28,191 nucleotides of DNA from a virus: IMG/VR virus record IMGVR_UViG_3300042906_001319, positions 1 to 28,191 of that record. One strand, 5' to 3'. The position numbers and the translations under genes are program-made. Below, piece after piece: positions 1 to 28,191 of the stretch. The number at the start of each line of letters is the position of its first letter. Position 1 is the first letter of the stretch. The notes beneath the pieces were generated by a model. It had not been told where the DNA came from and made no database searches. It saw nothing but the letters and a program-made list of their open reading frames with translations.

Positions 1-153
1 ATAGTCCTTATCTATTTTCTCATAAGTTTTATTAATCTCATGATGTAAATCCCAATCCAAAATAGATGTTTTTTCAGTTTTATTTGTTAAACTGTATAGT
101 TTATTTATCTTTTTCATGACTTCTCTTAATACTTTTTTAATTAAAATTCTCAT
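1..153 (-). CDS. Leader-bearing phage protein, N-terminal fragment
   Basis: The minus strand is open from an ATG at 153 to the window edge, giving 51 codons with no stop. It begins MRILIKKVLREVMKKINKLY, a basic amphipathic helix like the N-terminal leaders of several other proteins here (for example ILKKVILEQ in the gene at 16487-17116). A TATTTATC box lies 4 nt upstream of the start (158-165 on the plus strand). The rest of the gene is outside the window, so function is unknown. The start is supported by the leader and the box together. Confidence 0.6.
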   Translation of the reverse strand, partial: MRILIKKVLREVMKKINKLYSLTNKTEKTSILDWDLHHEINKTYEKIDKDY

Positions 154-157
154 AATT

Positions 158-165
158 GATAAATA
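158..165 (-). promoter_or_regulatory. TATTTATC box, putative late promoter
   Basis: Read on the minus strand this is TATTTATC, followed by AATT and the ATG at 153. The same box at nearly the same distance precedes the genes at 4868, 9895, 22840 and 12617-13042(-). Promoter function is inferred from this recurrence. The motif is AT-rich and a single copy could arise by chance. Confidence 0.4.
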
Positions 166-167
166 CC

Positions 168-198
168 TTGTTTTTAACAATTATTTTTTATATCTTTG
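168..198 (+). promoter_or_regulatory. Bacteroidota-type promoter for the lipoprotein gene
   Basis: TATCTTTG at 191-198 matches the Bacteroidota -7 consensus TAnnTTTG. CTTG ending at 170, 20 nt upstream, fits the -33 element. The ATG at 204 is only 5 nt after the box, so transcription would begin at or next to the start codon (a leaderless or nearly leaderless mRNA). Confidence 0.6.
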
Positions 199-203
199 TG
201 ATT

Positions 204-467
204 ATGAAAAAATTAATTTTTATAATTTTACCCGTAATAATGACTAGTTGTAATCAAAAAACGACTGATTTTGAGTTAATTACGAAAAAATGTGTTGTTG
301 ATACTATTGTATACAAAGGACAACATTCAACAATTGAACCGGATTTAACATGGGAAATAAGAACTGATTGTGGGGTTAATATAATTACAAAACAAGGTAA
401 CAAATATATTAAAGGAGATACGATAACTTTTTTAACAAAAAAATATAATGAGAAGAGAAATTTTTGA
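204..467 (+). CDS. Small putative lipoprotein
   Basis: 87 aa. The start at 204 is preferred over the upstream ATG at 156 because it gives a clean lipoprotein signal: MKK, a hydrophobic stretch LIFIILPVIMTSC, and a lipobox ending in Cys at about residue 16. The TAnnTTTG box also sits 5 nt before it. After the Cys is a short polar, Cys-containing domain with no family I recognise. The product is likely membrane-anchored in the host envelope, as with superinfection-exclusion lipoproteins, but that role is a guess. The 3' end overlaps the next gene by 20 nt. Confidence 0.65.
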   Translation: MKKLIFIILPVIMTSCNQKTTDFELITKKCVVDTIVYKGQHSTIEPDLTWEIRTDCGVNIITKQGNKYIKGDTITFLTKKYNEKRNF

Positions 468-705
468 GAAAGTTTTATTATCTTTGTATCCTAAAACAAA
501 ATTTAGTGTCAAGGAATATGAGGTTCATGAAAGATTTGATATGGGTAAGGAGGGTGAGTTTATAAAATGTGAACCAAGTATTTTTGTTACTATTGAAACT
601 AATAAAGAAATCGAACCCGAAGATTTGTCATCGGATGAGACTAATAATATAACCGATGAAGTTTGTAAATTTACAGGAAAAGAATTTAACATTTATAAAA
701 TATGA
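448..705 (+). CDS. Hypothetical protein
   Basis: 85 aa, starting MRREIFEKVLLSLYPKTKF and mixed in charge. It has no recognised domain, signal or membrane segment. It starts inside the 3' end of the lipoprotein gene and ends in an ATGA overlap with the next gene (start 702, stop 703-705), so the three genes are very likely one translationally coupled operon from the promoter at 168-198. Function unknown. Confidence 0.6.
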   Translation: MRREIFEKVLLSLYPKTKFSVKEYEVHERFDMGKEGEFIKCEPSIFVTIETNKEIEPEDLSSDETNNITDEVCKFTGKEFNIYKI

Positions 706-947
706 CGGAAGAAATTGAATCACCTTATTGCCCTGTATGTGATGGTTGTGGTGAAGAAGGTTGTTGTTCACCTATGTTTTGTGAACAGAGTCCTGATGGT
801 CATTATTGTAAAACATATCTTAAAGATTTGAGATTTGGTTATCAAATGTATAAACATATAATAGAATTGGTTGGTGAGGATGAGAAGTACAAAGAACAAA
901 TAGATAAAATGTGGGATGAGACTTACGACAAAATTTATCGTAAATAA
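702..947 (+). CDS. Cys-rich small protein (putative zinc-binding)
   Basis: 81 aa. The first third holds closely spaced cysteines in YCPVCDGCGEEGCCSP, followed by MFCEQSPDGHYCKTYL, with CxxC pairs suited to a zinc knuckle. The rest is predicted helical. From memory, similar short Cys-rich proteins occur in large phages, but I cannot name a family. It is coupled to the previous gene by ATGA. Its C-terminal ETYDKIYR recurs in the tiny reading frame at 2669-2734. Zinc binding is inferred from Cys spacing only. Confidence 0.6.
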   Translation: MTEEIESPYCPVCDGCGEEGCCSPMFCEQSPDGHYCKTYLKDLRFGYQMYKHIIELVGEDEKYKEQIDKMWDETYDKIYRK

Positions 948-949
948 AA

Positions 950-980
950 TTTGACTTCACGAAAAAAACCCTTATACTTG
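950..980 (+). promoter_or_regulatory. Strong Bacteroidota-type promoter for the small basic protein
   Basis: TTTG at 950-953 and TATACTTG at 973-980 are separated by exactly 19 nt. This matches TTTG-N19-TAnnTTTG except for one base in the -7 box. The start at 1017 is 36 nt downstream, so this mRNA has a real leader, unlike several other genes here. Confidence 0.65.
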
Positions 981-1016
981 TATCATAATTAATTAATCAC
1001 TTTAAATCAAAACAAA

Positions 1017-1199
1017 ATGGCTAGAAACCAAAACAACGGCAGCTACAAGGCGACTTACGGTAGCAACATTTACAAAAGCGGTAATCGTTATCGTGTTCGT
1101 GTATCAGTAGGAGGAAATCGTAATGATGCTTATGTGACCACATTAAACGAGGCTCGTTCTCTTCGTAGAACTTGGAAGTCTGAGCAGGCAGAAGCCTAA
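1017..1199 (+). CDS. Small basic protein, AP2/integrase-arm-like fold suspected
   Basis: 60 aa, rich in Arg, Lys and Asn. The core YKSGNRYRVRVSVGGNRNDA followed by a helix (LNEARSLRRTWKSE) has the three-strand-plus-helix pattern of AP2 or tyrosine-recombinase arm-binding domains, so DNA binding is plausible. Base use is unlike the neighbours: G+C is clearly higher and Arg is mostly CGT where neighbouring genes favour AGA. With a good promoter upstream and a structured terminator downstream, this suggests a strongly expressed gene. The antisense 60-codon frame across it is a shadow. Confidence 0.7.
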   Translation: MARNQNNGSYKATYGSNIYKSGNRYRVRVSVGGNRNDAYVTTLNEARSLRRTWKSEQAEA

Positions 1200-1206
1200 T
1201 CACAAG

Positions 1207-1246
1207 AACATCTATTAACTCTGATGTAGTAATCAGAAAAGATGTT
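1207..1246 (+). other. Nested hairpin in the 3' region of the small basic protein gene
   Basis: AACATCT (1207-1213) pairs with AGATGTT (1240-1246), enclosing a second stem CTGAT (1221-1225) with ATCAG (1232-1236). It lies just 3' of the stop codon and just before the terminator hairpin, so it is probably part of the mRNA 3' end, for stability or as a processed small RNA. Confidence 0.5.
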
Positions 1247-1248
1247 AA

Positions 1249-1305
1249 GGTGTGGAGGACAGAATTGGTTTAGTCTCCTAAGTTGTTCTCCCACCATTTT
1301 TTTTT
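1249..1305 (+). terminator. Rho-independent terminator after the small basic protein gene
   Basis: GGTG-t-GGAG (1249-1257, one bulged T) pairs with CTCCCACC (1288-1295), followed by nine T residues at 1297-1305. The 30-nt loop may fold internally (GGAGGAC against GTCTCC). Confidence 0.65.
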
Positions 1306-1382
1306 AATTCTTTATAAAAATAGATAAATGGTTAATCAAAATTCACTATTATTAGAATTATCGATTTTAATCTTAACAACTA

Positions 1383-1417
1383 AACCTTTATCATCTTAAT
1401 AGATAAAGGTTTTTTTT
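1383..1417 (+). terminator. Rho-independent terminator
   Basis: A perfect 10-bp stem, AACCTTTATC (1383-1392) and GATAAAGGTT (1402-1411), has a 9-nt loop and runs into eight T residues. It sits directly before the gene at 1425. The stretch from 1306 to 1382 holds no convincing gene, so this is a second terminator or an attenuator in front of the 1425 operon. No TAnnTTTG box is visible between the two terminators. Confidence 0.75.
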
Positions 1418-1424
1418 ATTAAAC

Positions 1425-1952
1425 ATGAAAGGAAAATTACATAATACAAAAGATGGTTGGGTTGTCAAATTTGAATATATAGACGACCAATATAGTTCAT
1501 ACATGGAATTTATTTCAATTAAATTACCGGTTATCTCTGAACAACAAAGCTTATATATGTTTGCGGAGTTAAGTGATGATTGGAAAAATAAATGTGAAGG
1601 TATGGAGGTTGAGTTTGAGTATTTACCGAATAATAAAAATACAAAATTTTTATTATCAGGTTTTGCAAAAATAAAGGTTGATGAATGTGAACCTATTATT
1701 TCAGATGATTTTCAAATAGGTCCTGATGGGGCGTATGAACATTCTGACAGAAATATAAGTTTCCAAAGTATTCTTTGGAAGGTGAGTGAACAATTACAAA
1801 ATGTTCAATATGATAATGGTGATATATCCGATTTGGGAAATGAAATTGGAATTTCTGTTGGTAAAGGGGTTGAGAATATGACTGAAAATGAAATTAGTAT
1901 TTTTATTTCAGGAATTAGACATGGAATTAGTTTAACAAACGGGACACATTAA
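1425..1952 (+). CDS. Hypothetical protein, first gene of the thyA operon
   Basis: 175 aa, starting MKGKLHNTKDGWVVKFEY. The first 90 residues are rich in alternating hydrophobics, suggesting a beta-sheet domain. The C-terminal part (about 115-175) looks helical and ends SIFISGIRHGISLTNGTH. No family recognised and no signal or membrane segment. It follows a terminator and leads a tightly spaced run of plus-strand genes to 4842 that includes thyA, so it is probably expressed early with nucleotide metabolism functions. Function unknown. Confidence 0.65.
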   Translation: MKGKLHNTKDGWVVKFEYIDDQYSSYMEFISIKLPVISEQQSLYMFAELSDDWKNKCEGMEVEFEYLPNNKNTKFLLSGFAKIKVDECEPIISDDFQIGPDGAYEHSDRNISFQSILWKVSEQLQNVQYDNGDISDLGNEIGISVGKGVENMTENEISIFISGIRHGISLTNGTH

Positions 1953-1961
1953 TAATAATAC

Positions 1962-2336
1962 ATGACAGATAATTTAACATTAATAACTAATGAGTTTGAA
2001 AATCTAAAAGGACAATATGTTCTTGTTGATTGTGAATCGTTTCGTCTAATAGGAATTGTTGAGGATGAACATGATTACTATTATTGTTTATATGATGGTA
2101 GAAAACTTAAATTAACAACTTGTTTGATGAGAATAACTCCATTAAAAGGTTACATCATAGAAGACCATTATAATGAAATGATTCGTATTGCGAAATTGAA
2201 TCATTATGACCAACCATCTTTATGGGGTACTAATAAGAACATTTCCGAATTTAATGAAAAACACAAAGAAGAGTTGACTAGTGATTGGGATAAAAACACA
2301 AAATTTATATTAGGACCTTATTGGGAATTAAATTAA
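1962..2336 (+). CDS. Hypothetical protein
   Basis: 124 aa. Residues 15-55 (KGQYVLVDCESFRLIGIVED and on) read like a small SH3-like or KOW-type barrel, and the C-terminal half contains WGTNKNISEF and ends in GPYWELN. It is soluble with no catalytic motif visible. It begins 9 nt after the preceding stop. A decayed copy of its first 27 bases, 24 of them identical, is found at 2731-2757. Confidence 0.6.
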   Translation: MTDNLTLITNEFENLKGQYVLVDCESFRLIGIVEDEHDYYYCLYDGRKLKLTTCLMRITPLKGYIIEDHYNEMIRIAKLNHYDQPSLWGTNKNISEFNEKHKEELTSDWDKNTKFILGPYWELN

Positions 2337-2340
2337 TATT

Positions 2341-2676
2341 ATGAATAACGAAAAAATGAATCAGATTATTGATGAGGTGTATAAAAAATACACCGACAAG
2401 TATATTGGATATGAAGATGTTCCAATAAAAGAACTTTTTATTCATGAAATTAAAACCAATCCAGAGTTCTCTGAAAAATGGGGGTTAAAGATTGAAGAAC
2501 GAGAATTGAGTTTGGAAGAGAGATACCATCTATGGTTTAATAATAATTATGAAACAGGTATGGAAAGATACTTTCACTCAAACAATATTCCAAACTTTGA
2601 TAACCAGTATTATACACCAACACCAACCAAACTAATAACAATAACATATAACGAAACAATAGAAATATATGAATAA
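2341..2676 (+). CDS. Hypothetical helical protein
   Basis: 111 aa, mostly helical and acidic, starting MNNEKMNQIIDEVYKKYTDK and ending in a Thr-rich tail. No known domain. It starts 4 nt after the previous gene and overlaps the tiny frame at 2669 by 8 nt. Its N-terminus resembles that tiny frame (MN-x-E then a helix ending E-x-Y-x-K), suggesting a local duplication. Confidence 0.6.
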   Translation: MNNEKMNQIIDEVYKKYTDKYIGYEDVPIKELFIHEIKTNPEFSEKWGLKIEERELSLEERYHLWFNNNYETGMERYFHSNNIPNFDNQYYTPTPTKLITITYNETIEIYE

Positions 2677-2734
2677 AGAACTAATAGATAATATTTTACA
2701 TGAAACATACGATAAAATATATAGAAATGTATGA
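2669..2734 (+). CDS. Very short reading frame, possible gene remnant
   Basis: 21 aa, MNKELIDNILHETYDKIYRN plus Val. It resembles the first 20 residues of the gene at 2341 and shares ETYDKIYR with the C-terminus of the gene at 702. It keeps ATG-stop overlaps with its neighbours, so it may still be translated. It is more likely the left-over 5' end of a duplicated gene. Confidence 0.3.
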   Translation: MNKELIDNILHETYDKIYRNV

Positions 2735-2757
2735 TAGACAATTTAACATAAATAACT
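2731..2757 (+). pseudogene. Decayed copy of the start of the gene at 1962
   Basis: Aligned with 1962-1988, 24 of 27 bases match. One of the three differences creates a TAA stop after six codons (MIDNLT). The intact gene reads MTDNLTLIT. This looks like a truncated duplicate left in front of the membrane protein gene at 2758. Confidence 0.4.
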
Positions 2758-3048
2758 ATGATAGACTATAATTACATTACTAAGTTCCTTGGCGTTATGG
2801 TTGCTATGACGTTAGCTGATATTTGTTGGACTTATTACTTTATTAAAATTGCCGAAAGAAAATCAATTTCTGCAGGTATATGGGCATGTTTGATTTACAT
2901 ATTCGGTGCATTTACGGTGACTTCTTATATTGAAGATAAAACTCTAATTGTTGCCGCCATAATCGGCTCATTTATTGGAACCGCTGGTACAGTAGAATAT
3001 AAAAAAAGAAAAGATAAGAAGATAATTAATAATATTAATAGTAACTGA
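2758..3048 (+). CDS. Small membrane protein, three predicted helices
   Basis: 96 aa. Hydrophobic segments at about 8-30 (FLGVMVAMTLADICWTYYFI), 40-57 (IWACLIYIFGAFTVTSYI) and 62-82 (TLIVAAIIGSFIGTAGTV) are followed by a Lys-rich tail (YKKRKDKKI). Many phages encode small inner-membrane proteins with this layout, including a W-T-Y-F-I first helix, but I know of no established function. The stop overlaps the next start as TGATG, so it is coupled to the gene at 3048. Confidence 0.65.
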   Translation: MIDYNYITKFLGVMVAMTLADICWTYYFIKIAERKSISAGIWACLIYIFGAFTVTSYIEDKTLIVAAIIGSFIGTAGTVEYKKRKDKKIINNINSN

Positions 3049-4867: not shown

Positions 4868-5257
4868 ATGAAAGTAACCGTTAGATATCAAAAAGATTCT
4901 GTATATGATGAAGACCATAGTTTTTATCATGATTTTATTGAATTTTTACAGGATGAATATCCTTTAACTCAGGATATTAAAATCAATTTTGTAAATAATA
5001 GGGTTGGTAATATGACAACAGGGAATAGAATGGATAAACATGTAATAAATGTTTTGACCAAAAATAGAATGAATCGTGACATTTTAAGAACACTTAGTCA
5101 TGAATGGGTTCACGAACATCAAAGAGTGAATCTAAAAATGAAAAAAGGACCTGATATTGGTGGAAAGAATGAAGATATGGCAAATAGTGTTGCCGGTGTT
5201 TTAATAAAAAAGTTCGAGAAAAAATTCCCGAACTTAGAAGAAAGAATGTATAATTAG
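4868..5257 (+). CDS. Small zinc metallopeptidase (HExxH)
   Basis: 129 aa. HEWVH at residues 78-82, inside TLSHEWVHEHQ, is a classic zincin motif. A possible third ligand is the acidic NEDMANSVAG segment about 20 residues later, as in SprT-like or other minimal zincins. No signal peptide or membrane segment, so it would act in the cytoplasm or virion. A TATTTATC box 3 nt before the start suggests late expression and hence a virion or lysis role. The substrate is unknown. It converges on the transglycosylase gene with a 4-nt overlap of stops. Confidence 0.75.
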   Translation: MKVTVRYQKDSVYDEDHSFYHDFIEFLQDEYPLTQDIKINFVNNRVGNMTTGNRMDKHVINVLTKNRMNRDILRTLSHEWVHEHQRVNLKMKKGPDIGGKNEDMANSVAGVLIKKFEKKFPNLEERMYN

Positions 5258-6982: not shown

Positions 6983-7291
6983 ATGAAATCATTTACAATT
7001 TCTGAACAGGAAAAAAGAGATATATTAGATAAATATTCCAAAAATACGGACGATAATGTTTTTAATTATTTACGTAGACACTATCCTGTATTAACACATG
7101 AGTTAGATTTTGAACCAAAAATAAAGATGAAATATCTAATTATTGATGATAAAACATATTATTTAAAGGATAATAAATCGTATTTAGCGGAAAAGTTTAA
7201 AAATATGTTAAAAGATGAGTTTTCATACGTATCTATGCCTACTTTAGTAAGGACAATAAAAAAATTTTTAAGTTTGGCTTTGTTAGATTAA
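6983..7291 (+). CDS. Leader-bearing hypothetical protein
   Basis: 102 aa. It starts MKSFTISEQEKRDILDKYSK, the ISE-x-EK-x-x-IL-x-x-[YH] form of the leader that is also seen at 25444 (ITKEEKENILDQH) and at 23808-24449 (ITESQKRTILSES). The body is basic and helical at the C-terminus (TLVRTIKKFLSLALLD). The leader suggests a virion-associated protein. No enzymatic motif seen. Confidence 0.6.
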   Translation: MKSFTISEQEKRDILDKYSKNTDDNVFNYLRRHYPVLTHELDFEPKIKMKYLIIDDKTYYLKDNKSYLAEKFKNMLKDEFSYVSMPTLVRTIKKFLSLALLD

Positions 7292-9861: not shown

Positions 9862-9883
9862 TAAACTTAAATGAATAAAGAAG

Positions 9884-9891
9884 TATTTATG
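9884..9891 (+). promoter_or_regulatory. TATTTATG box before the histidine kinase gene
   Basis: TATTTATG-AAT-ATG, with the start at 9895. The box lies inside the reading frame that begins at 9871 and argues for the downstream start. Confidence 0.4.
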
Positions 9892-9894
9892 AAT

Positions 9895-11496
9895 ATGAAT
9901 AAAGAATCAAAACACTATTTACTTTTTTCAATCATCATTATGTCGGTTTTTTTTATCCTTAAAACCGCAATATTAATTGGAATGTTTGAACCAACTCAAT
10001 TAACTCGTATTGTTGAATACCTTTGTATAGTTTTATTTATACCAATATTTTATTTTTTAATGAAATCACAAACCGCTGAACTAAAAAGTGATTTATTAAA
10101 AACAATAAAAGAGAGTGAGGAGTTTATTGATACTGCAGCAATTGTTTCAGTTGCAGATAAAAACGGTAAAATAACGTATGTTAATAAAAAATTTGAGGAA
10201 GTTTCTGGATGGTCATTAGATGAAGTAATAGGTAAGGACCATATTATCGTTAATTCGGGATTACAACCTGACGGTTATTGGGGTAAGATGTATAAGACGG
10301 TAATGAACGGTGAAATATGGAATGATGTTGTTACCAATAAAACAAAATCAGGTGAATTGTATTATGTTGATACATACATTAAAGCAAAATTTGATAAAAA
10401 TAATAAGTTGGTAGGGTTTTCATCAATTAGACAAGACGTTACCGAATTAAAGAAAAAAGAAGCGGAGATTCGTAATAGAATGAACGCCATAAATAAATCT
10501 AATGCGGTTATTGAGTTCGATTTACAAGGAAACATTATTTTCGCTAATGAATTGTTTTTAAATACTATGGGTTATTCTTTACAAGATAAGATATCTGGAA
10601 AACATCATAGAATTTTTATAGATGAAGAGTATTCAAAAAGCGATGAATATCGTATTTTTTGGGAAAAATTAAATGAGGGCGTATTGTTTTCAGGTGAAAT
10701 TGTTAGAGTCAAAAAAGATGGGTCGTTAGTTTATTTACAGGCAACTTACAATCCTATTATTGGTACTGATGGTAAGATTTATCGTGTTATGAAAATCGCA
10801 ACAGACATCACCAATTCTTATGAACAAAAGAAAGAGATTGAAAAGAAAAATACGTATTTAGAACATGCCGCCAAAATATTAAGACACGATATGCACTCAG
10901 GGATTAATACTTACATGCCAAGAGGACTTAATTCTTTAGAACGTAGATTAAAACCTGAAGATATCGAATCATTAAAGATTGAATCACCTCTTAAAATGAT
11001 TAAAGAAGGTTTAAAACATTCTCAAAAAGTTTATAAAGGAGTGTATGAGTTTACTAATTTAGTTAAGAAAGACGTTGTTTTAAATAAAACAGAATGTAAT
11101 TTAAAAACTATTTTAAACGATTACTTGTCATCAACTGCATATATTAGTCAGGTGATTATCGAAGATTTACCAACTATTGATGTTAACGAAGCTCTATTCT
11201 GCACCGCAGTGGACAATTTAATCAGAAATGGGTTAAAATATAATGACTCAGAAACCAAATTTGTTAAAATATATTCAGATGAAGAATCCATATATATCCA
11301 AGACAATGGTAGAGGAATTACTCAAGAAGACTTTGACCATTTATCAAAACCTTACACAAGAAAAGAAGGTCAAAAAGAATCAGGTAGTGGATTGGGGTTG
11401 AATATTTGTGTTGCAATTTTGGAAGAACATGGGTTTAAAATTACCTGTGAAAAAAATGAAGTCGGAACTAAAATTAAAATAAACATAAAAAAGTAA
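9895..11496 (+). CDS. Membrane-bound PAS-PAS histidine kinase
   Basis: 533 aa from the preferred start (an ATG at 9871 would add eight residues). Two membrane helices (about 7-30 and 40-58) are followed by a first PAS domain (SVADKNGKITYVNKKFEEVS) with its PAC region, a second PAS (VIEFDLQGNIIFANELFLNT), and a dimerisation region with the likely phospho-acceptor His331 in ILRHDMHSG. The ATPase domain has an N box (DNLIRNGLKYN), G1 (QDNGRGI) and G2 (GSGLGLNI). All catalytic boxes are present. The PAS domains may sense a small ligand, redox state or light. The two downstream genes are its probable partners. Complete sensor kinases are rare in phages. Confidence 0.93.
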   Translation: MNKESKHYLLFSIIIMSVFFILKTAILIGMFEPTQLTRIVEYLCIVLFIPIFYFLMKSQTAELKSDLLKTIKESEEFIDTAAIVSVADKNGKITYVNKKFEEVSGWSLDEVIGKDHIIVNSGLQPDGYWGKMYKTVMNGEIWNDVVTNKTKSGELYYVDTYIKAKFDKNNKLVGFSSIRQDVTELKKKEAEIRNRMNAINKSNAVIEFDLQGNIIFANELFLNTMGYSLQDKISGKHHRIFIDEEYSKSDEYRIFWEKLNEGVLFSGEIVRVKKDGSLVYLQATYNPIIGTDGKIYRVMKIATDITNSYEQKKEIEKKNTYLEHAAKILRHDMHSGINTYMPRGLNSLERRLKPEDIESLKIESPLKMIKEGLKHSQKVYKGVYEFTNLVKKDVVLNKTECNLKTILNDYLSSTAYISQVIIEDLPTIDVNEALFCTAVDNLIRNGLKYNDSETKFVKIYSDEESIYIQDNGRGITQEDFDHLSKPYTRKEGQKESGSGLGLNICVAILEEHGFKITCEKNEVGTKIKINIKK

Positions 11497-11508
11497 AAAA
11501 ACAAAAAA

Positions 11509-11943
11509 ATGATTGATTCAATTTTATTAGTGGATGATGAAGATTTATTCCATTTAGTATTCGAAGATGCGTGTTCGTTATTGGATATTAGTCTTTCACT
11601 AAAATCTTTAAACAGTTCGGATGAAGCGGCGAAACTATTTAAACGATGGTTAACTGGGGATAATAGTGATAGACCTGAATGTGTATTCGTTGATTTAAAT
11701 ATTATTGGTTCTTCCTTTGATGGTATTGAGTTAATAAGAAAAATAAATTTTGAATACGGGAACAATGTAGTTATTGGGATTATTTCATCTTCAGATGAAC
11801 CTGAAGAACAAGCAAAAGCTCTACAGGCGGGTGCTCAATTTTGGATTATAAAATCGGATGACATTGAACCAAGGTTAGATGAGTTTAGACAAGATTACGA
11901 AAGTTACAAAAATAGAACCGCACCATTTAAAATATATAAATGA
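11509..11943 (+). CDS. Single-domain response regulator
   Basis: 144 aa, a receiver domain only, starting MIDSILLVDDEDLFHLVFED. The acidic pair Asp9/Asp10, the phospho-acceptor Asp62 (CVFVDLNI), the switch Ser in IGIISSSD and the conserved Lys115 (WIIKSDD) are all there. No DNA-binding or enzymatic output domain, so it must act by protein contact, like CheY or Spo0F. It starts 12 nt after the kinase and ends in an ATGA overlap with the coiled-coil membrane protein, the most likely target or relay partner. Confidence 0.93.
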   Translation: MIDSILLVDDEDLFHLVFEDACSLLDISLSLKSLNSSDEAAKLFKRWLTGDNSDRPECVFVDLNIIGSSFDGIELIRKINFEYGNNVVIGIISSSDEPEEQAKALQAGAQFWIIKSDDIEPRLDEFRQDYESYKNRTAPFKIYK

Positions 11944-16486: not shown

Positions 16487-17116
16487 TTAAATCCCTATTT
16501 CACCCAAAAATTCATCCCAATCATCAGTCTCACTAATATAATTTGTTTTATAAATTGCGGAATCATAATCTAAATCTCTAACATCATTATACCACTTTTG
16601 AGCAAATCTATCAACACCATGTTTCACAACCTCTTTATTGATACCTGATAAATCATACCCATCGGTTAAATCACCAACAATTTGGTCTTTAATAGTGTCA
16701 ACAGTTATATCATCACCTTTACCCCAATTTTTCGGTTTTTTAAGACCAAAAAATTGATTATAAGTTTTAATTTTTAATTTTTGATTTTTAATATAATTCC
16801 TTATATAATCTTTTCTATTAAAATCAACTTCCAAGTTGAAATGTTTTGAAAACCACTTATCAAAGATATCTTCAGTGTCATCAAAATTAAACCCAAAAAT
16901 ATTACGTAAAAACCCACTAACATGGTGACTCAGTGTAGGTCTTTTTAATTTTTTATAATAAGTGAAAACTTCATCACCATTTTTCATAAATGAAATTTTA
17001 TCATCGGACTCAATAGGTTCAACACTACCATATTCTTTTGTCAAAAAACGATTGTAAACCAATTCAAATCTTGATTGTTCTAAAATGACTTTTTTTAATA
17101 TTGACGTGAATTTCAT
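16487..17116 (-). CDS. Leader-bearing hypothetical protein
   Basis: 209 aa from the ATG at 17116. The frame stays open to 17191, but the internal start is preferred because it begins with the leader MKFTSILKKVILEQSRF, which ends in the ILEQ seen also at 18343-18846. The body is basic, rich in Lys, Phe and Asn, with no recognised domain (KPTLSHHVSG is written KRPTLSHHVSGFLRNIFGF in full). The leader suggests packaging into the capsid. There is no TATTTAT box just upstream. The gene follows the orphan leader duplicate on the same strand. Confidence 0.6.
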   Translation of the reverse strand: MKFTSILKKVILEQSRFELVYNRFLTKEYGSVEPIESDDKISFMKNGDEVFTYYKKLKRPTLSHHVSGFLRNIFGFNFDDTEDIFDKWFSKHFNLEVDFNRKDYIRNYIKNQKLKIKTYNQFFGLKKPKNWGKGDDITVDTIKDQIVGDLTDGYDLSGINKEVVKHGVDRFAQKWYNDVRDLDYDSAIYKTNYISETDDWDEFLGEIGI

Positions 17117-17180
17117 CTTTGTTATTTTATTACTATAATTATACAATTGTTTGAAAAAGAAAGGAGTCATATAACTAAAA

Positions 17181-17225
17181 CCACCTTTCATCCCACAAAC
17201 TAAAGATTTGTGGGTTTTTCGGTGG
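17181..17225. other. Nested inverted repeat upstream of the gene at 16487-17116
   Basis: CCCACAAA (17192-17199) pairs with TTTGTGGG (17207-17214), enclosed by CCACC (17181-17185) and GGTGG (17221-17225). Five T residues follow the inner stem on the plus strand. It lies where the duplicated leader cassette ends, so it may be a recombination remnant, a terminator or a structured RNA. Confidence 0.45.
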
Positions 17226-17310
17226 AGTTATATAAAATTTGATTTAGTTCTTCAGATAATCTTTTTTCCATAATTATTTTTTCATTACTTGTTGATTTAG
17301 ATTTTGCCAT
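17200..17310 (-). pseudogene. Orphan leader peptide (duplicate of the N-terminus of 17804-18340)
   Basis: A 36-codon frame whose middle, MEKRLSEELNQILY, is identical at DNA and protein level to the start of the gene at 17804-18340. After that it leaves the match and stops (NSTEKPTNL). It has 13 extra N-terminal codons (MAKSKSTSNEKII) and a TATTTATA box (17328-17335) 17 nt upstream. It may be a truncated gene or a leader cassette that lost its cargo. Confidence 0.5.
17230..17281. repeat. 52-bp direct repeat, copy 1
   Basis: Identical over 52 bases to 18299-18350, starting ATATAAAATTTGATTTAG. It encodes the leader MEKRLSEELNQILY on the minus strand. The flanks differ. Confidence 0.9.
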
Positions 17311-17803: not shown

Positions 17804-18340
17804 TTATGCACTAAGTGGTAAAGGTTTTCCACCAGGGTAAAGTCTAATAAATAAACCATTTTTACCTTTTTTCACAAATGTGTTTGGAGATATAAGACCG
17901 TCTGTTGATTTTTTAAATGACTTATCATTTTCTAATACAGTAATATCCATTTCAGCAATATCACCAGTAAATACCCTAACATTATTGTCTTTAGGGTCTA
18001 TACCAACAAATTTGAATTTTGCGTTAATTTGTATCGGGGATAGACTTGAACGAACAATATTATTGAAGTTTTCAGAAACAATTCCTTGATTTTTAATAAA
18101 ATCACCGTCAACAATCTCATTTGTTTTTGGGTTTACTTTGAATTCTGATACAACACCATTTAATGGGGTCATTTCACCATCTTTATCATATAAATAAAGT
18201 TTTGAATTCTGAATAGTTAACTTGTTCCCAATTAATGAGAAGTATTTTTGAGGTAAGGCTTGTTCACTTATAACAACACCTTTTTTATAATTTGTCAAAT
18301 ATAAAATTTGATTTAGTTCTTCAGATAATCTTTTTTCCAT
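17804..18340 (-). CDS. Leader-bearing hypothetical protein
   Basis: 178 aa from the ATG at 18340 (an upstream ATG at 18370 overlaps the preceding gene). The leader runs MEKRLSEELNQILYLTNYKK and continues GVVISEQALPQ, with the putative cleavage motif ISEQ at about residue 24-27. The body is strand-rich (LIGNKLTIQNSKLYLYDKDG, FKFVGIDPKDNNVRVFTGDI), like a structural or adaptor domain. The start lies 2 nt after the upstream stop, so it is cotranscribed with 18343-18846. The first 14 codons are duplicated at 17230-17281. Confidence 0.6.
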   Translation of the reverse strand: MEKRLSEELNQILYLTNYKKGVVISEQALPQKYFSLIGNKLTIQNSKLYLYDKDGEMTPLNGVVSEFKVNPKTNEIVDGDFIKNQGIVSENFNNIVRSSLSPIQINAKFKFVGIDPKDNNVRVFTGDIAEMDITVLENDKSFKKSTDGLISPNTFVKKGKNGLFIRLYPGGKPLPLSA

Positions 18341-18350
18341 AATTATTTTT
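18299..18350. repeat. 52-bp direct repeat, copy 2
   Basis: Identical to 17230-17281. This copy spans the start codon and first 14 codons of an intact gene and 10 bases before it. Confidence 0.9.
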
Positions 18351-18846
18351 CTTTTATTAAAATTAAACATCTTTTTAAGTACTCTTTTGCTCTTGGTGAC
18401 GGGTCATTGTGTTTTAATACTTTTTCAATATCCCTAACTAATTCTTCACCATGTTCATTCTCTTTATACAATTCGATTACTTTATCCATAGCCTTTAAAC
18501 AACCACTATTAGTCTCATCAAAGTAATTTTTATTTCTGAATTTGTTTAAATGATTCATTAAACCGTAAGATAAATGTTCACCACCGTCTTTAATATCAGG
18601 ATGTAATCTAATTGTTTTTAACATATCCAATGTGTCAACAATTCCGTTTATACCACCATCTCTTTTAGTTAAATTACTTGTGTAGTTTTGAAATTCTTTA
18701 GAAGGACCAACTATCTCGTCTAAAGAAATTATATTTCCAGCAACACATCTCTGTTTCTCTTCTTTTGGTTCAACATTACTTTGTTCCAAAATGTATTCTC
18801 GTATAGATTGACGAAGTTTTTTCTCGTTTATAATATATTTAGGCAT
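18343..18846 (-). CDS. Leader-bearing hypothetical protein
   Basis: 167 aa. The leader is MPKYIINEKKLRQSIREYIL followed by EQ, an amphipathic helix ending in ILEQ. The body is helical and charged with three Cys (RCVAGNII, SGCLKAM, KRCLILIKEK) and no recognised domain. A TATTTATA box lies 17 nt before the start. It is first in a two-gene unit with 17804-18340. The leader suggests packaging into the head. Confidence 0.6.
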   Translation of the reverse strand: MPKYIINEKKLRQSIREYILEQSNVEPKEEKQRCVAGNIISLDEIVGPSKEFQNYTSNLTKRDGGINGIVDTLDMLKTIRLHPDIKDGGEHLSYGLMNHLNKFRNKNYFDETNSGCLKAMDKVIELYKENEHGEELVRDIEKVLKHNDPSPRAKEYLKRCLILIKEK

Positions 18847-19819: not shown

Positions 19820-20446
19820 ATGAACAAAAAAATAAAAAATATAATAAGAGAAAGTTTATTAGAATTGGTTAATCCCCCAATGAAACTGACTGAAAATGTT
19901 GAAATTTCAGAAGAATTAGAATATCATTTAGATAATAATATAAGTTTATCTGAAAATGTTTTTAGAATATACTCTGACGGATATTTTAAATTAATAAACG
20001 AAGTTAGAGACCTATATAACCGTAATTTAATAAGACTTAATGATGACGATACTTGGATTGTTGAAAGTGATTTAGGAAAAAGAGTTAAATTAAATAATGG
20101 TGATATTGTTTGGTTGGATGCTCCAATTTATGAGAATGATTTAGAAGATGTTTTGACTGAAGCAAAACACCGTGGTAAAAATGTTAAATTAAATAGTCCA
20201 TTCAGAACACCTGGTGGTCCTAAAAAGTTTGCCGTTTATGTGAAAACACCTAAAGGTACTATTAAAAAAGTAACATTTGGTGACCCAAATTTAAAAGTTA
20301 GAAATAGAAATCCAAAAGCTGCAAAATCATTTAGAGCTCGTCATAAATGTGACCAAAAGAAAGATAGAACTACTGCTGGTTATTGGAGTTGTTCTGTTGG
20401 TAGATATGCAAAAAAATTAGGTTTAAAAAGTTCAAGAAGTTGGTAA
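19820..20446 (+). CDS. Leader-bearing basic phage protein (DUF5872-like C-terminus)
   Basis: 208 aa. The leader MNKKIKNIIRESLLELVNPP is followed by several [L]-x-E sites (LTEN, LSEN, LTEA) within the first 120 residues, possible prohead-protease cuts. The C-terminal part is basic and conserved: SPFRTPGGPKKFAVYVKTPK, VTFGDPNLKVRNR, KSFRARHKCDQKKDR, TTAGYWSCSVGRYAKKLG. This matches a domain I recall from many phages (DUF5872 type), probably a head-associated or DNA-contacting protein. The basic end would be released by cleavage at LTEA. A TATTTATT box lies upstream. Confidence 0.75.
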   Translation: MNKKIKNIIRESLLELVNPPMKLTENVEISEELEYHLDNNISLSENVFRIYSDGYFKLINEVRDLYNRNLIRLNDDDTWIVESDLGKRVKLNNGDIVWLDAPIYENDLEDVLTEAKHRGKNVKLNSPFRTPGGPKKFAVYVKTPKGTIKKVTFGDPNLKVRNRNPKAAKSFRARHKCDQKKDRTTAGYWSCSVGRYAKKLGLKSSRSW

Positions 20447-22839: not shown

Positions 22840-23805
22840 GTGGTGAAAGAAAATTTATTAAAAATTGTAAACAAATACTTTAAAGATAGAGTATTGAAAT
22901 ATAATGGTCCTATAATACATGGGGTAGAAATGAATGCTGACATAGATTTCAAAGTCGAGGTTCTGAAGTCAAAAAAAATGATTAGTGTTGGTGAATGGTA
23001 TGATTATTTGTCGTTGAAAATAACTATTGTAGAGGTAAATAATGATATATCTAGGTTAATTCTGGGTTTAATACCTAATTTAGAAAATTTTGGTGAAAAA
23101 GAACTTTGGTATTTTAAACAACACTTAGGGTCATATCTTTATGATACATTTAAATTTTTTGATACTGATGTTAGGATTACTATAGATGAATTAGTACTTG
23201 ATGTTTCAGATAATAAACAATTAACAGAGTCAAAAATGAGTAGAATTGCAATCAGAACTGTTGTTAAAGACATTATAAAAATAATAAAAGACAATGAAGA
23301 GGGTGAGTTTAATTTACCAATTGATGGTGATGAATATAGTTTTACAAATTCACCTGTTGATTTCAGAGTAGAACTTTACTTAGTTCAAAACAATGATATA
23401 AAAAATTTTAATACTGAAGCGTATTCTGTAAGTAGTGTGGATATAATTGAGATTGGTGTTGAATACAATCCTAATTTAATAGAAAAACAATTATATGATT
23501 TGGTTGGGGAATTGAATGAAATTGTTGCACATGAAATCGAACATATTTTACAATCACATCGTGGTGAATATGAAATTGATGATGATATTGAGGAAATTAA
23601 AGACCCATTAAAATACTACACACAATCTCATGAAATTTCTGCCCAAATTAAAGGGTTTAAACGACTATCGAAACTTAGAAAAAAACCTTTTGAAGAGGTT
23701 GTGCTGAATTGGTTTGATACCCATAGTGATATACATACATTAAATGAAAAAGATAAAAACACGGTAATAAAAACAATTATAAGTACTTATAATAGTAGTA
23801 AATGA
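22840..23805 (+). CDS. Leader-containing zinc metallopeptidase (HExxH)
   Basis: 321 aa with a GTG start. Residues 231-235 HEIEH, in EIVAHEIEHILQSH, form the zinc site. A second conserved block YYTQSHEISAQIKGFKRLSK could give the third ligand (Glu265). The N-terminal 125 residues are a separate strand-rich domain. Between the two lies QLTESKMSRIAIRTVVKDII, which looks like an internal leader with an LTE-S cut site. It begins MVKENLLKIVNKYF, also leader-like. It is probably a virion-associated or processed protease. Substrate unknown. Confidence 0.75.
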   Translation: MVKENLLKIVNKYFKDRVLKYNGPIIHGVEMNADIDFKVEVLKSKKMISVGEWYDYLSLKITIVEVNNDISRLILGLIPNLENFGEKELWYFKQHLGSYLYDTFKFFDTDVRITIDELVLDVSDNKQLTESKMSRIAIRTVVKDIIKIIKDNEEGEFNLPIDGDEYSFTNSPVDFRVELYLVQNNDIKNFNTEAYSVSSVDIIEIGVEYNPNLIEKQLYDLVGELNEIVAHEIEHILQSHRGEYEIDDDIEEIKDPLKYYTQSHEISAQIKGFKRLSKLRKKPFEEVVLNWFDTHSDIHTLNEKDKNTVIKTIISTYNSSK

Positions 23806-23807: not shown

Positions 23808-24449
23808 TTAATCAGATACTGTTTTGTTGAATCTTTTTAACAATTTGGTTATTAATTCTTTAACAATAATCCCAGATACCGTTAAAACTGTGAAAGTCCC
23901 TAATCTTTTAACAATCTCTTGAATGTCTTTATTATTCAGTTCTCCGTCCGTTGCGATTTCATATAACATTGGTAAAATAGGAATAATGAATGCGTAACTT
24001 AAAATATTTGTTACTTTATGAAAGGTAATTCCCAAACTTTGGATAAAACCGATAAAAACTCTTTTTAATTCATTACTTTTTGATAGAATCTTTTTGAAAA
24101 TATTATATAATCCTTTTTCTTTAATGGTTTCTAAAATACTCCCAACAGTTTTTTTATTATCAATGAAATGAATTGCTATTATACCTGTTAATACCAAACT
24201 CAATTCAATATCTGACATTTCAGGATATATTCCTTGGACAAAATCATTAATTGGTCTCATAAATCCTCCAATTACTGCACCCCAAGTTAACATAAACTCT
24301 AAGTTCAACCCCGTTTGTTCAGAAGAATCTTTAACAATTTTTTTTATGAAATCATTATTTTTTTTAATTTGTGTTTCAAAATCATTCTTAAATGATTCAC
24401 TCAAAATTGTTCTTTTTTGTGACTCTGTGATAATAATTGATATACTCAT
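23808..24449 (-). CDS. Leader-bearing multi-helix membrane protein
   Basis: 213 aa. It starts MSISIIITESQKRTILSESF, the ITE-x-x-K-x-x-IL form of the leader. Likely membrane helices are LEFMLTWGAVIGGFM, LSLVLTGIIAIHFI, ILSYAFIIPILPMLYEIA and LGTFTVLTVSGIIVKELI. The C-terminus is basic. A leader on a membrane protein suggests it is carried in the virion and inserted during genome entry, or simply that the leader has another role. A TATTTATT box lies 5 nt before the start. Confidence 0.6.
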   Translation of the reverse strand: MSISIIITESQKRTILSESFKNDFETQIKKNNDFIKKIVKDSSEQTGLNLEFMLTWGAVIGGFMRPINDFVQGIYPEMSDIELSLVLTGIIAIHFIDNKKTVGSILETIKEKGLYNIFKKILSKSNELKRVFIGFIQSLGITFHKVTNILSYAFIIPILPMLYEIATDGELNNKDIQEIVKRLGTFTVLTVSGIIVKELITKLLKRFNKTVSD

Positions 24450-24454
24450 ATGAT

Positions 24455-25103: not shown

Positions 25104-25385
25104 CATATATTTCCACTCACCATCAACATTTTTTGGGGTAACTTCTCTATCTAAGAAAACTGCATTTTGTTCACCAGCATATAACCCCAAGATATTATAA
25201 TCATAATATTCTTCAGCCTCCTCCTCAGTCATCAAATCTTTTTCACGTAAGATTTGTATTATTTTAGGTTTACTGTACAAAATTCTAGGTCCGTTACCAA
25301 ATTCTTCAACAATACCTATTATTGCATCTTCCAAACCATCAAGTAGGATTGCACCTTCTGCGTATTCGTCTATATTTAATTCCAT
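25095..25385 (-). CDS. Conserved phage-type hypothetical protein
   Basis: 96 aa, acidic. The pattern LDGLEDAIIGIVEEFGNGPR, ILYSKPKIIQILREKDLMTE, EEAEEYYDYNILGLYAGEQN, AVFLD is one I recall from many phages and phage-like elements as an uncharacterised protein. No catalytic motif. It is a lone minus-strand gene within a plus-strand late cluster, possibly early-expressed. No clear TAnnTTTG box is visible upstream. Confidence 0.65.
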   Translation of the reverse strand: MELNIDEYAEGAILLDGLEDAIIGIVEEFGNGPRILYSKPKIIQILREKDLMTEEEAEEYYDYNILGLYAGEQNAVFLDREVTPKNVDGEWKYMLV

Positions 25386-25423
25386 AATAACAATTATAAT
25401 TAAAACATTCTATTGAATCAATA

Positions 25424-25431
25424 TATTTATT
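25424..25431 (+). promoter_or_regulatory. TATTTATT box
   Basis: TATTTATT with a 12-nt A-rich spacer before the ATG at 25444, matching 24472 and the endolysin arrangement. It could drive the cluster 25444-28191. Confidence 0.4.
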
Positions 25432-25443
25432 GAAAAAACAATT

Positions 25444-25896
25444 ATGAACTCATATTTTTTCGGAATCACAAAAGAAGAGAAAGAAAACATTCTCGACCAA
25501 CACAAAAAACCATACGATGGTTATGTTACACAATACATTAAACCTGAAGTTCAACCACTTTACGTTCAAGACTTTGCAAATGATAAAGAAGGTTTGACTG
25601 TAAACAATAAAGGTGAAGTTAAACACCACACCTACATGGGTATCAATGAAGACGTTTTTTCCGGCACTAAGTTCGAACCTGAAGTATCTTTTGATGAGGG
25701 TGAAACCGATGAACAATTGGATATGATTGGGGATGGTGATGATGATTTGGAACATGGTACTTTTGATGATGAAGATATTGACTTTTCAGATATTGATGTT
25801 ATTACATTTGATGAAGTGGAAGAAGAAGTTAAGGAACCTTTAAAAGAACAGGTAAATAAGACTTTGGATATGTTCAGAAGATTTAAAAATTATTAA
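25444..25896 (+). CDS. Leader-bearing acidic protein
   Basis: 150 aa. The leader is MNSYFFGITKEEKENILDQH followed by KKPYDGYVT. The middle (about 84-130) is very acidic (DMIGDGDDDLEHGTFDDEDI and on). The C-terminus turns basic and holds another LKEQ within PLKEQVNKTLDMFRRFKNY. It has no known domain. The leader, the acidic low-complexity region and a late-type box suggest a scaffold-like or packaged protein. Confidence 0.6.
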   Translation: MNSYFFGITKEEKENILDQHKKPYDGYVTQYIKPEVQPLYVQDFANDKEGLTVNNKGEVKHHTYMGINEDVFSGTKFEPEVSFDEGETDEQLDMIGDGDDDLEHGTFDDEDIDFSDIDVITFDEVEEEVKEPLKEQVNKTLDMFRRFKNY

Positions 25897-25897
25897 A

Positions 25898-26212
25898 ATG
25901 GAAGTTAGAGAAATTGTTAATTATTATATAAATGAAACTCTTCATACTTTAGAAGTTACATTTAAAACAAATAATGATAACGATGACGAGTTAAGAGTTG
26001 ACCAAGTAGATTTGAATGAAGCCGAAAACTTTGGTTTTTTATTTACAAAAACAAATGTTGAGGATTTATACGAAGATTTAAACCTTGATGAGGATGTTTT
26101 CGATATTGATGAGGATGAAGATGAAGAAATTGAGGTGGAGGAAGTTATTTCGTTTTTAAATGAATATTACGCAATATATCCTGAAAGACTACCATCAGTA
26201 ACAATATATTAA
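25898..26212 (+). CDS. Acidic hypothetical protein
   Basis: 104 aa, strongly acidic, with DLNLDEDVFDIDEDEDEEIE near residues 64-83. The first 35 residues form a likely beta hairpin (VNYYINETLHTLEVTFKTNN). No leader and no domain recognised. It starts 1 nt after the previous stop and ends 1 nt before the next start, so it is part of one operon. Confidence 0.6.
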   Translation: MEVREIVNYYINETLHTLEVTFKTNNDNDDELRVDQVDLNEAENFGFLFTKTNVEDLYEDLNLDEDVFDIDEDEDEEIEVEEVISFLNEYYAIYPERLPSVTIY

Positions 26213-26213
26213 A

Positions 26214-26465
26214 ATGAGAAATGATTTAGACTATATTATTAATCTAATGTCAAAATTTACCACATCAACTAATGATGGGGAAATTGGTGAACAAGATTCT
26301 GCAGGTGGAACTCCATCAGGTGGAGGAGGTGGTACAAAACCAAAATATCCTTCAGTTACTAAATGGGAAACAGGTTTAACAAGAGGACCGGCAAATCAAA
26401 TTGGTAATACAAAATGGTCAGATAGCGTAAAAGTTAATCGAGGAAAAGCAAATACTTTATTATAA
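26214..26465 (+). CDS. Leader-bearing small Gly-rich protein
   Basis: 83 aa. The N-terminus MRNDLDYIINLMSKFTTSTN leads to IGEQDS, a site of the [I/L]-x-E-Q type at residues 24-27. A Gly-rich linker (AGGTPSGGGGGTKPKY) is followed by WETGLTRGPANQIGNTKWSD, a block I recall from small proteins of related phages. It is probably a processed virion component. It is within the 25444-28191 cluster. Confidence 0.6.
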   Translation: MRNDLDYIINLMSKFTTSTNDGEIGEQDSAGGTPSGGGGGTKPKYPSVTKWETGLTRGPANQIGNTKWSDSVKVNRGKANTLL

Positions 26466-26472
26466 ACTCAAA

Positions 26473-26480
26473 TATTTATA
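26473..26480 (+). promoter_or_regulatory. TATTTATA box
   Basis: TATTTATA, 16 nt before the ATG at 26497, in the only larger gap (31 nt) of this cluster. Confidence 0.35.
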
Positions 26481-26496
26481 TAAAATAAAATAACTT

Positions 26497-27612
26497 ATGA
26501 AAGACAAAAAAATACAAGAAGCTGAAGAACAACTTAAAAGAGTTCTTCTTATGATGAAATACGATTCTTCAAAAACATTAAGTGAGAATAAAGAACAAAT
26601 TTTGGAAGATGATTATGGAACAGCCGCTGCGGTTGGAGTTGGTGGTGGTGCTGCGTTAGGTGCTGGTGCCGTTGCATTGGGTTCTCAAAGTGTACCAGTG
26701 GCGGTTGCGGTTGGTTCTACGTTTGGACCTACAGCGGCGGCAATTGGTTCTACTTTAGGTATTGGTCTAGCAGGTGGTGCAGCTGTTTTGGGTGGTGCAG
26801 TAGGATTGGCGGTATTACCTTTAGCATATTGGATTATTAGAAAAGATACGGGTTCTGCAAATTCGGTTAAAGAACTTTTACAAATGTGTAGTACAAATCC
26901 AAATATAAAAAAATTGGAACGTAAATTATCAGACACTCAAATTAGAGATTTATCCGATAAAATAAATGATGCGATAAATTATTCAACTGGAGGTTTTATA
27001 CCCGCAGGAACTGATGAAGAAAGTTTATATTCTGCTTTTAATTCTGTAAGTGAAGGTACTGCGGCCGATATATGTGCTTTAAATGATAAGTATAAAACAT
27101 CTTACGGTGATTTATATGAAGATTTGGATAGTGATATTGATAGTCCTGATGAGTGGAAAAAAATATATAGACCTTTAAGAAATTGTGTTGAAGATAGTTT
27201 ACTTAAAGTAAAAGAAGAAAATAAATGTCCTGAAGGTCAAATAATAAACCCTAAGACAAATAAATGTGAACCTTTAAAAAAGGGTGGAAATGGTACTTCA
27301 AAGTATAAAGTATGTAATAATTTCCCTTATGGATTATATTGCAAAAGTGAGGTCATTAGAAAAGTACAACAATGTCTTGGAACGAAAGATGACAGTTTAT
27401 TAGGTCCAGCAACTGAAAACGCATTAAAAGCTAATGGTTATTCATTACCATTAACTAAAGAAATGTATGATAAAATTGTTGCAAAATGTAGTGGTACTCA
27501 AACAAGTACTCAACAAACTGAAGTAAATCCATATGATAATTGGGAACCAAATGAACCCGAAACAGGAGACGCTTCAATAAATAAACAAGAAACAGATACA
27601 ACCGAAGGATAA
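26497..27612 (+). CDS. Leader-bearing protein with Gly/Ala hydrophobic region and peptidoglycan-binding-like tail
   Basis: 371 aa. The leader (residues 1-36) runs from MKDKKIQEAEEQLKRVLLMM to KTLSENKEQ, with LSEN as a likely cut. Residues 43-112 are Gly/Ala/Val-rich and hydrophobic, enough for two membrane passes. A helical domain with Cys follows (about 120-240), then a possible Cys-stabilised segment (CPEGQIINPKTNKCEPL). Residues about 268-330 resemble PG_binding_1 (VIRKVQQCLGTKDDSLLGPA, TENALKANG). The Thr/Glu-rich end is disordered. It may be ejected with DNA to reach the membrane and wall. Confidence 0.65.
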   Translation: MKDKKIQEAEEQLKRVLLMMKYDSSKTLSENKEQILEDDYGTAAAVGVGGGAALGAGAVALGSQSVPVAVAVGSTFGPTAAAIGSTLGIGLAGGAAVLGGAVGLAVLPLAYWIIRKDTGSANSVKELLQMCSTNPNIKKLERKLSDTQIRDLSDKINDAINYSTGGFIPAGTDEESLYSAFNSVSEGTAADICALNDKYKTSYGDLYEDLDSDIDSPDEWKKIYRPLRNCVEDSLLKVKEENKCPEGQIINPKTNKCEPLKKGGNGTSKYKVCNNFPYGLYCKSEVIRKVQQCLGTKDDSLLGPATENALKANGYSLPLTKEMYDKIVAKCSGTQTSTQQTEVNPYDNWEPNEPETGDASINKQETDTTEG

Positions 27613-27617
27613 TTACT

Positions 27618-28191
27618 ATGAAAACTATTTTAAAAGAACAAGTTAGTCAAAATAAAATTGATTTAATACAAGGACGAGATGTATATAAATGCCCATTTTT
27701 GATAGGTGCCAAATCAGGTCCTGCTGTTGGTGGTAAACAAGTTATGAGAAGAATTGCCAAAACAAATAGCCCGAAAGGAAATTATATCATTGGTGATTTT
27801 TTATTTATTAAAGATGATTATACATATGACGTTGTTAGGGACAAAAAATTAGTTAAATCAAATCTTAAATGGGCGTGTTCAACATTAAATAAAGATGTAG
27901 TACTACCACAAATTTCTGCAGACCAAATGAAGTCTGTTGATGATTTAATTGCAAAATATCCTGGTACGTACCAAAAAGAGACACCTACTGCAGACCAATT
28001 AAAAACGGGTGAATGGAAAAAAATAAATTTAAAAAATAGATTTCCTGAACAATTTAAATTTGATTACATCATATACGAAAAAGGTGGTTTAAGACAAACA
28101 AATAGTCCACAACAAGAAAAAATAATCGCGACTTATGTGGATAGAGGTTGGAAAGATTTAGGAGGCAAAATAAATCCCGCTGAGATAGATA
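27618..28191 (+). CDS. Leader-bearing protein, partial at the window end
   Basis: 191 codons without a stop. It starts MKTILKEQVSQNKIDLIQGR, with the shortest version of the leader (LKEQ at residues 5-8). The body is basic and strand-rich (KCPFLIGAKSGPAVGGKQVM, YIIGDFLFIKDD). No family recognised. It starts 5 nt after the previous stop, so it continues the late-type cluster. The C-terminus is outside the window. Confidence 0.65.
   Translation, partial: MKTILKEQVSQNKIDLIQGRDVYKCPFLIGAKSGPAVGGKQVMRRIAKTNSPKGNYIIGDFLFIKDDYTYDVVRDKKLVKSNLKWACSTLNKDVVLPQISADQMKSVDDLIAKYPGTYQKETPTADQLKTGEWKKINLKNRFPEQFKFDYIIYEKGGLRQTNSPQQEKIIATYVDRGWKDLGGKINPAEID

Follow-up and report, generated by a model that had tools for sequence, protein, structure and literature searches.

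Among the known head cargo of phage T4, IPI counters defence and Alt reprograms transcription. Together with IPII and IPIII, these unrelated proteins share a short N-terminal segment, the capsid-targeting sequence (CTS), which ends in [LI]-x-E and occurs in a phage with an S77 protease and a gp23 capsid protein. Ten residues of the T4 CTS suffice for packaging, gp21 cuts after L/I-X-E, an Asp at CTS position 10 prevents processing while targeting is still possible, and the CTS may, according to a review, allow T4-like phages to package varied proteins (PMC9026906). In the phiKZ-like giant phage SPN3US (gp53/gp54, protease gp245), a T4 gp21 homologue likewise cuts head proteins after x-E and many proteins are ejected, but the motif is A-x-E, most propeptides are long (111-254 residues) and cleavage spares about 80% of the head proteins; the parts of that account available to us mention no leader family common to many bodies (PMC10052503). 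Here we analyse the IMG/VR virus record IMGVR_UViG_3300042906_001319, taken whole at 28,191 bases (the window), from which 33 proteins entered the motif counts. The first-pass annotation had proposed that a cohort of its proteins carries N-terminal leaders ending in an [IL]-x-E site, and that these load cargo into the head. We put the probability that the leaders are capsid-targeting sequences at roughly 0.8, and infer packaging, cleavage and delivery from comparative sequence evidence: an S77 protease in relatives, a matching capsid site, a profile built from a single family, the exchange of leaders between orthologous bodies, and T4-like leaders in a Mahaphage.

Nucleotide comparison of the window with isolated phages gave no match. 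A near-identical copy sits within a 61-kb contig (G001), and the IMPDH-like gene of the window has 110 relatives on viral contigs, which include the large pieces G007 (294 kb), G020 (306 kb), G012, G002 and G010 as well as the huge phages LR745206 (634 kb), LR756504 (636 kb) and LR756502 (642 kb). LR756502 is a Mahaphage, a group for which Bacteroidetes are the predicted hosts (PMC7162821). Matches to Peptidase_S77 in 19 of 34 related records and to the gp23 capsid protein in 22 of 34 point to T4-type heads, and the window, as judged from these comparisons, is a 28-kb piece of a T4-like Bacteroidetes phage. Its relatives probably belong to the described group of bS21-encoding Bacteroidetes phages, for which Bacteroidetes hosts are likewise predicted and whose terminase, portal, protease and capsid region, the same as in the relatives, includes a bS21-like gene on the reverse strand (PMC9723584); a short reverse-strand open reading frame (ORF) resembling bS21 by sequence adjoins the protease at G007:66230. 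A text search of the portion of that paper available to us found no description of leaders (PMC9723584).

The gp21-like protease expected elsewhere in the genome was thus borne out in the relatives, where it keeps the His motif E[LF][ND]HP and the Ser motif G[IV]SSRG and has an N-terminal LIE-like stretch, as has been noted for T4 gp21 (PMC9026906). In the capsid proteins of the window's group, 12 of 12 full-length members have L-[IL]-[NTS]-E/[AST] as their predicted propeptide site (here and below, a slash marks the point after the putative P1 residue); it agrees in type and rough position with the sites of Flavobacterium phage vB_FspM_immuto (IVSE/A; host LMO8), here called immuto and the nearest isolate found, and of T4 gp23 (FLTE/A). 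No [IL]xE-type site was evident at the corresponding place in capsid proteins of the Mahaphage type. Several leadered genes of G002, G010 and immuto are neighbours of the genes for capsid, scaffold and protease, although most leadered genes lie in separate clusters (24 of 36 within 54 kb in G007, p 9e-9; 17 of 24 within 40 kb in G012, p 1e-4). The leadered proteins of immuto include immuto26A_3, _176, _177, _179, _191, _194, _195 and _202. A literature search for a virion proteome of immuto found none.

A profile search of related phages bears directly on whether these N-termini form a family. We built a profile only from the leaders of orthologues of the gene at 18343-18846 and ran it, at a threshold of at least 4 bits and without hand-made patterns, on whole protein sets. 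It picked out unrelated proteins at their N-termini: 22 in G012, including that contig's own 18343 orthologue, against 1 internal and 1.7 shuffled hits, and 18 in G007 against 3 internal and 2.7 shuffled; the crAss-like control gave 1, 1 and 0, respectively. Looser class patterns, which were drawn from these same N-termini, mark 36 of 281 proteins as leadered in G007, 24 of 130 in G012, 26 of 296 in G020 and 11 of 96 in G002, compared with 0-3% of internal stretches. That the bodies are unrelated, as first suggested, was confirmed across 85 leadered proteins, whose mean column identity is 5%. The leaders fall into five types: M-K-x-x-I-[RK]-x-x-[IL]-L-E (type A), [LI]TE-x-x-L-x-x-[IL]-[VI]-K-R-V-I-x-E (type B), ITEEEKxxIL (type C), a helix ending in LMxY followed by a spacer and [LI]-[ST]-E-[QN] (type D), and MKYLITESQ (type E). 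Searches (tblastn) of 50,697 phage records with leader consensus peptides of 24 and 31 residues found nothing, because the peptides are too short. Judged from their sequences, the leaders also look unlike Sec or lipoprotein signal peptides, being charged and amphipathic with no uninterrupted hydrophobic core followed by a signal peptidase site or lipobox, and the ordinary signal peptides of the window (204+, MKKLIFIILPVIMTSC; 17416+, MKRILILLVLIVFSKLLFGQ) do not resemble them.

Conservation centres on the putative cleavage site, with P1 Glu and a hydrophobic P3 kept and P2 free in three orthologue families. The gene at 18343-18846 (minus strand) begins with MPKYIINEKKLRQSIREYILE (18784..18846) then Q, with a second site, INE8; among its 23 orthologues [ILV]19 is kept, position 20 is variable and E21 is present in 20. 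In the AlphaFold2 model of this protein, residues 8-22 form a separate helix and residues 25-30 are of low confidence; the body is folded beyond about residue 33 and has no fold match at E ≤ 0.001 in the PDB or among viral models. The gene at 23808-24449 (minus strand) has two sites in its leader (24396..24449), MSISIIITE and SQKRTILSE, the latter followed by S; E9 and E18 occur in 23 of 23 orthologues, both P3 positions are invariably [IL] and both P2 positions vary. The gene at 26214-26465 (plus strand) has a leader (26214..26291) ending in DGEIGE then QD, and its 18 orthologues conform to [LIFM]24-x-E26-Q27, with E and Q in all 18 and P2 being D, G or E.

Different leaders are found on the same bodies. 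One body (YMFFSNLEQM...) carries MRNIDNIIRKVIKE, MKNLNTLIKKVLRE, MKKIKLTESELTNIVKRVLEE and MRITESQLNNLVKKIVNE in four phages, of type A in G007 and G002 and of type B/E in G010 and G012. The exchange extends to the 642-kb Mahaphage LR756502, whose polyphosphate kinase 2 (PPK2; 140679) starts MINNFIKFINE/E, while that of G007 (G007:25806) has the type D leader MRKLLTEVEKIKEIMGVSLNE/S; the two enzymes are 46% identical over 326 residues, with Pfam E values of 6e-77 and 2e-72. In the same comparison across deep lineages, a DHH-like phosphoesterase has MLRKYGQFINE/E and MRKIISE/S. In G020, a CCA-adding enzyme carries the leader MKTQIKQILRE/G, its Pfam domain starting at residue 43, and the G007 homologue is without a leader. 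The Mahaphage leaders (MIKRYSQFIKE, MKIRKFTEFINE) closely resemble the MKTYQEFIAE/A that IPII and IPIII of T4 read in the sequence record. An aromatic residue followed by [ILV]xE lies within the first 22 residues of 80 of 669 LR756502 proteins (24-27 expected), and the strict T4-type pattern occurs at 21 of 669 N-termini (1.6 expected, p 6e-17). The T4-like [YF]-x-x-F-[IL]-x-E is thus found in LR756502, whereas the leaders of the window's group begin with the MK and end with the [IL]xE of this form and lack its aromatic core. As a separate observation on this phage, 86 of its 669 proteins of at least 100 residues begin MK[HY][LI], often MKHLKxYKIFES; many lie in one stretch (e.g. 13051-44127), and they form a large leadered family cluster.

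Many of the leaders are basic amphipathic helices, which would also suit an uncleaved peptide that docks or localises proteins in the infected cell, at the membrane, the host polymerase or a replication compartment. We regard this as unlikely: it would leave unexplained why different leader types share the [IL]-x-E end of the capsid site, why P1 and P3 are fixed with P2 free, and why KFINE and LTEVEKIKEIMGVSLNE leader types are swapped on one enzyme. A second alternative, that the shared N-termini are relics of duplication in paralogues whose bodies have diverged past recognition, with no targeting role, would fit the paralogy of some leadered Mahaphage genes and the clustering in G007 and G012, and is nonetheless very improbable, given that old families with no relation to one another have leadered members (PPK2, DHH, CCA-adding enzyme, WYL-like) and that the leaders on orthologous bodies can be non-homologous.

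Within the window, the motif exceeds chance only in its longer form. Plain [IL]xE at residues 2-31 occurs in 14 of 33 proteins against 11.7 after shuffling (z 0.8), while [IL]xE[QNSE] occurs in 8 of 33 against 3.3 (z 2.9), with 4 and 3 of 33 in the next two 30-residue blocks; the evidence for enrichment from the window alone is modest. The longer motif at residues 2-31 is found in 68 of 269 proteins of G007 (z 7.6), 38 of 124 of G012 (z 8.0), 46 of 277 of G020 (z 4.3) and 23 of 93 of G002 (z 4.3), which is 1.8-2.8 times the shuffled level in these four relatives; further in it is flat, every z at residues 62-91 being at most 1.7. The 60 kb of G010 examined gave little excess at residues 2-31 (z 1.4), and no clear leaders were seen in the first 50 kb of Tenacibaculum phage pT24. 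In five S77-bearing phages there are 22-35 [IL]xE motifs per 1000 positions at residues 5-14, a density that drops to 12-15 past residue 45. These data bear on the possibility that AT-rich genomes, with proteins rich in K, I, L and E and a bias to N-terminal helices, produce the motif through composition alone. In favour of such an origin, plain [IL]xE is not enriched in the window and lies at about 1.2 times the shuffled level throughout these proteomes; we consider it highly improbable for the leaders, since shuffled controls of the same composition and internal controls fail to give the N-terminal excess and the single crAss-like control is flat (9-11 per 1000 positions).

Within the leaders, variability is greatest at the third codon position in four of four families (0.46/0.28/0.50 and 0.35/0.28/0.46 at positions 1/2/3 in two of them), and selection therefore acts on the leader peptide. 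Bacteroidetes often lack Shine-Dalgarno sites, and the N-terminal confinement of the motif might have reflected selection on nucleotides near the start codon for translation initiation, with the peptide as a by-product, but this variability, the interchange of hydrophobic residues and sites as far in as codons 26-30 make that explanation scarcely credible.

Several observations weigh against the leaders being capsid-targeting sequences. Besides the absence of enrichment for the plain motif in the window itself and its slight general excess elsewhere, leadered bodies show no depletion of internal [IL]xE (ratio 1.16 vs 1.20), overall enrichment is weak in the isolated phage immuto (z 1.6), and a test for conserved Glu columns in 20 orthologue families was borderline (5/14 vs 10/82, p 0.04). 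Some type E starts (MKYLITE/SQ) have one site only, seven residues in. The class-pattern list holds false positives, such as a probable sigma factor (G007:191260) and an endolysin (G012:24441); we also take the ribonucleotide reductase (RNR) beta subunit of W03 and G007, which has an ILxEN start, to be one, on our understanding of the usual RNR N-terminus. Finally, neither the window nor its 61-kb extension contains a protease or capsid gene, because both are fragments.

Capsid targeting, in our preferred reading, would proceed as in T4. A short N-terminal segment, some 7-26 residues long and in many cases an amphipathic helix, would bind to the immature head's scaffold and so carry the rest of the protein inside; the phage's gp21-like S77 protease would then cut after [IL]-x-E, freeing the mature protein inside the head, and this cargo would be ejected with the DNA at infection. 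We infer scaffold binding, cleavage, presence in the virion and ejection into the host by analogy with the T4 CTS, a strong working analogy. The principle is already known from T4, and the leaders look like that system greatly expanded and diversified: a handful of proteins carry a CTS in T4, whereas about 5-15% of the proteome matches here, with several types in the window's group (IRxxLLE, LTExxLxxIVKRVIxE, ITEEEKxxIL, helix-then-LSE) and a likely cargo that includes PPK2, a DHH-like phosphoesterase and a CCA-adding enzyme.

The leadered proteins suggest a large cargo set, including metabolic enzymes, that would be loaded into heads for delivery to the host. The 85 leadered proteins match 15 Pfam families in all, including the CCA-adding enzyme, WYL and lysozyme/SLT/NlpC-type wall hydrolases, some of which may be pattern false positives. 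By comparison, 85 control proteins of G007 match 59 families, including HSP70, IMPDH, dUTPase, DHFR, NusG, helicase and the capsid protein; leaders are therefore largely absent from ordinary enzymes of replication and metabolism. Slightly better than even, in our estimate, are the odds of a broader proposal, that two deep Bacteroidetes phage lineages, the window's group and the 642-kb Mahaphage, devote about a tenth of their proteins to head cargo through several interchangeable leader types descended from or converged on the T4 CTS, and that the virion delivers ready-made enzymes (PPK2, DHH-like phosphoesterase, CCA-adding enzyme, a WYL-like protein and many proteins of unknown function) before phage gene expression. 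If so, the leader would reveal from sequence alone which of a huge phage's hundreds of unknown genes encode virion cargo that acts in the first minutes of infection, and these tags, found in large capsids and exchangeable for one another, could be used to load proteins into heads; an enzyme cargo such as PPK2 would be unexpected and directly testable. Our search of the openly licensed literature found T4 and phiKZ-type papers and no description of these leaders, of this scale or of such enzymes as cargo.

All the N-termini listed in the first-pass annotation lie at the coordinate and on the strand it gave, but the one at 25444 lacks an [IL]xE throughout residues 1-45. That gene (25444-25896, plus strand) has the variant N-terminus MNSYFFGITKEEKENILDQ (25444..25500); its start (ITKEEKENILDQ) resembles the variant class, the site is missing too in most of the orthologues listed, and we treat it as a doubtful member. 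The gene at 6983-7291 (plus strand) has an ITEEEK-type leader, MKSFTISE then Q (6983..7006), and its L027 orthologue reads MGRLIITE/Q. At 17804-18340 (minus strand) the leader MEKRLSEELNQILYLTNYKKGVVISE then Q (18263..18340) is of the helix-then-site type, as is MSKILTEISQMKYLFGYKRGVVISE then Q at G007:20597. The gene at 26497-27612 (plus strand) carries a leader ending in KRVLLMMKYDSSKTLSE then N (26497..26586), with a KTLSE site; orthologues in L010, L051, L044 and at G007:38027 keep LM[KN]Y-x-x-x-KTL[TS]EN. A short leader, MKTILKE then Q (27618..27638, plus strand), opens a gene that runs past the window end and has 555 residues in G001:14179. Pfam and PHROGs searches with the bodies of window proteins gave few matches.

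The gene at 19820-20446 (plus strand) begins with MNKKIKNIIRESLLE then L (19820..19864), with a further site, KLTE25, followed by N. Many leaders among its 21 orthologues are of the DNLIKKVLRE/S type, G020 has a homologous body among its head genes (42656), and the AlphaFold2 model of the window protein is poor (mean predicted local distance difference test score, pLDDT, 55). Its C-terminal domain corresponds to phrog_7595, called the HVA1 family in Roseobacter phages and common to Flavobacterium, Pelagibacter, Methylophilales and Roseobacter phages.

At the window's left end, the leader MRILIKKVLRE then V (121..153, minus strand) belongs to a truncated gene; homologous bodies carry MRDLIKKVLRE/A (G001:43311), MKDTIKQLLRE/A (G020:200514) and MELNKIIKKVLRE/T (L040). 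Relative to G001 43311-44498, about 975 bp are missing at window positions 1-153, the leader of a 395-residue gene being fused directly to its C-terminal part, through either a strain deletion or an assembly difference.

The gene at 16487-17116 (minus strand, 209 residues) has the leader MKFTSILKKVILE then QSRF (17078..17116). An alternative start, the ATG at 17191, was rejected in favour of 17116 because it arises from a remnant resembling an insertion sequence (IS). This remnant (17176-17239, about 64 bp) forms a hairpin, CCCACAAA-TCTTTAG-TTTGTGGG, has a second copy, 98% identical, at G001 47606-47669, and is IS200/IS605-like in appearance only. Adjoining it, positions 17230-17281 are a 52-bp exact copy of 18299-18350, where the leadered gene at 18340 starts. 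Elsewhere in the window, 4868-5257 and 22840-23805 are two HExxH-like, apparently metalloprotease-like ORFs without a clear leader (weak matches to domains of unknown function), and 9871-11943 appears to encode a two-component pair on a phage contig, with a PAS-type sensor histidine kinase and, after it, a receiver-domain protein.

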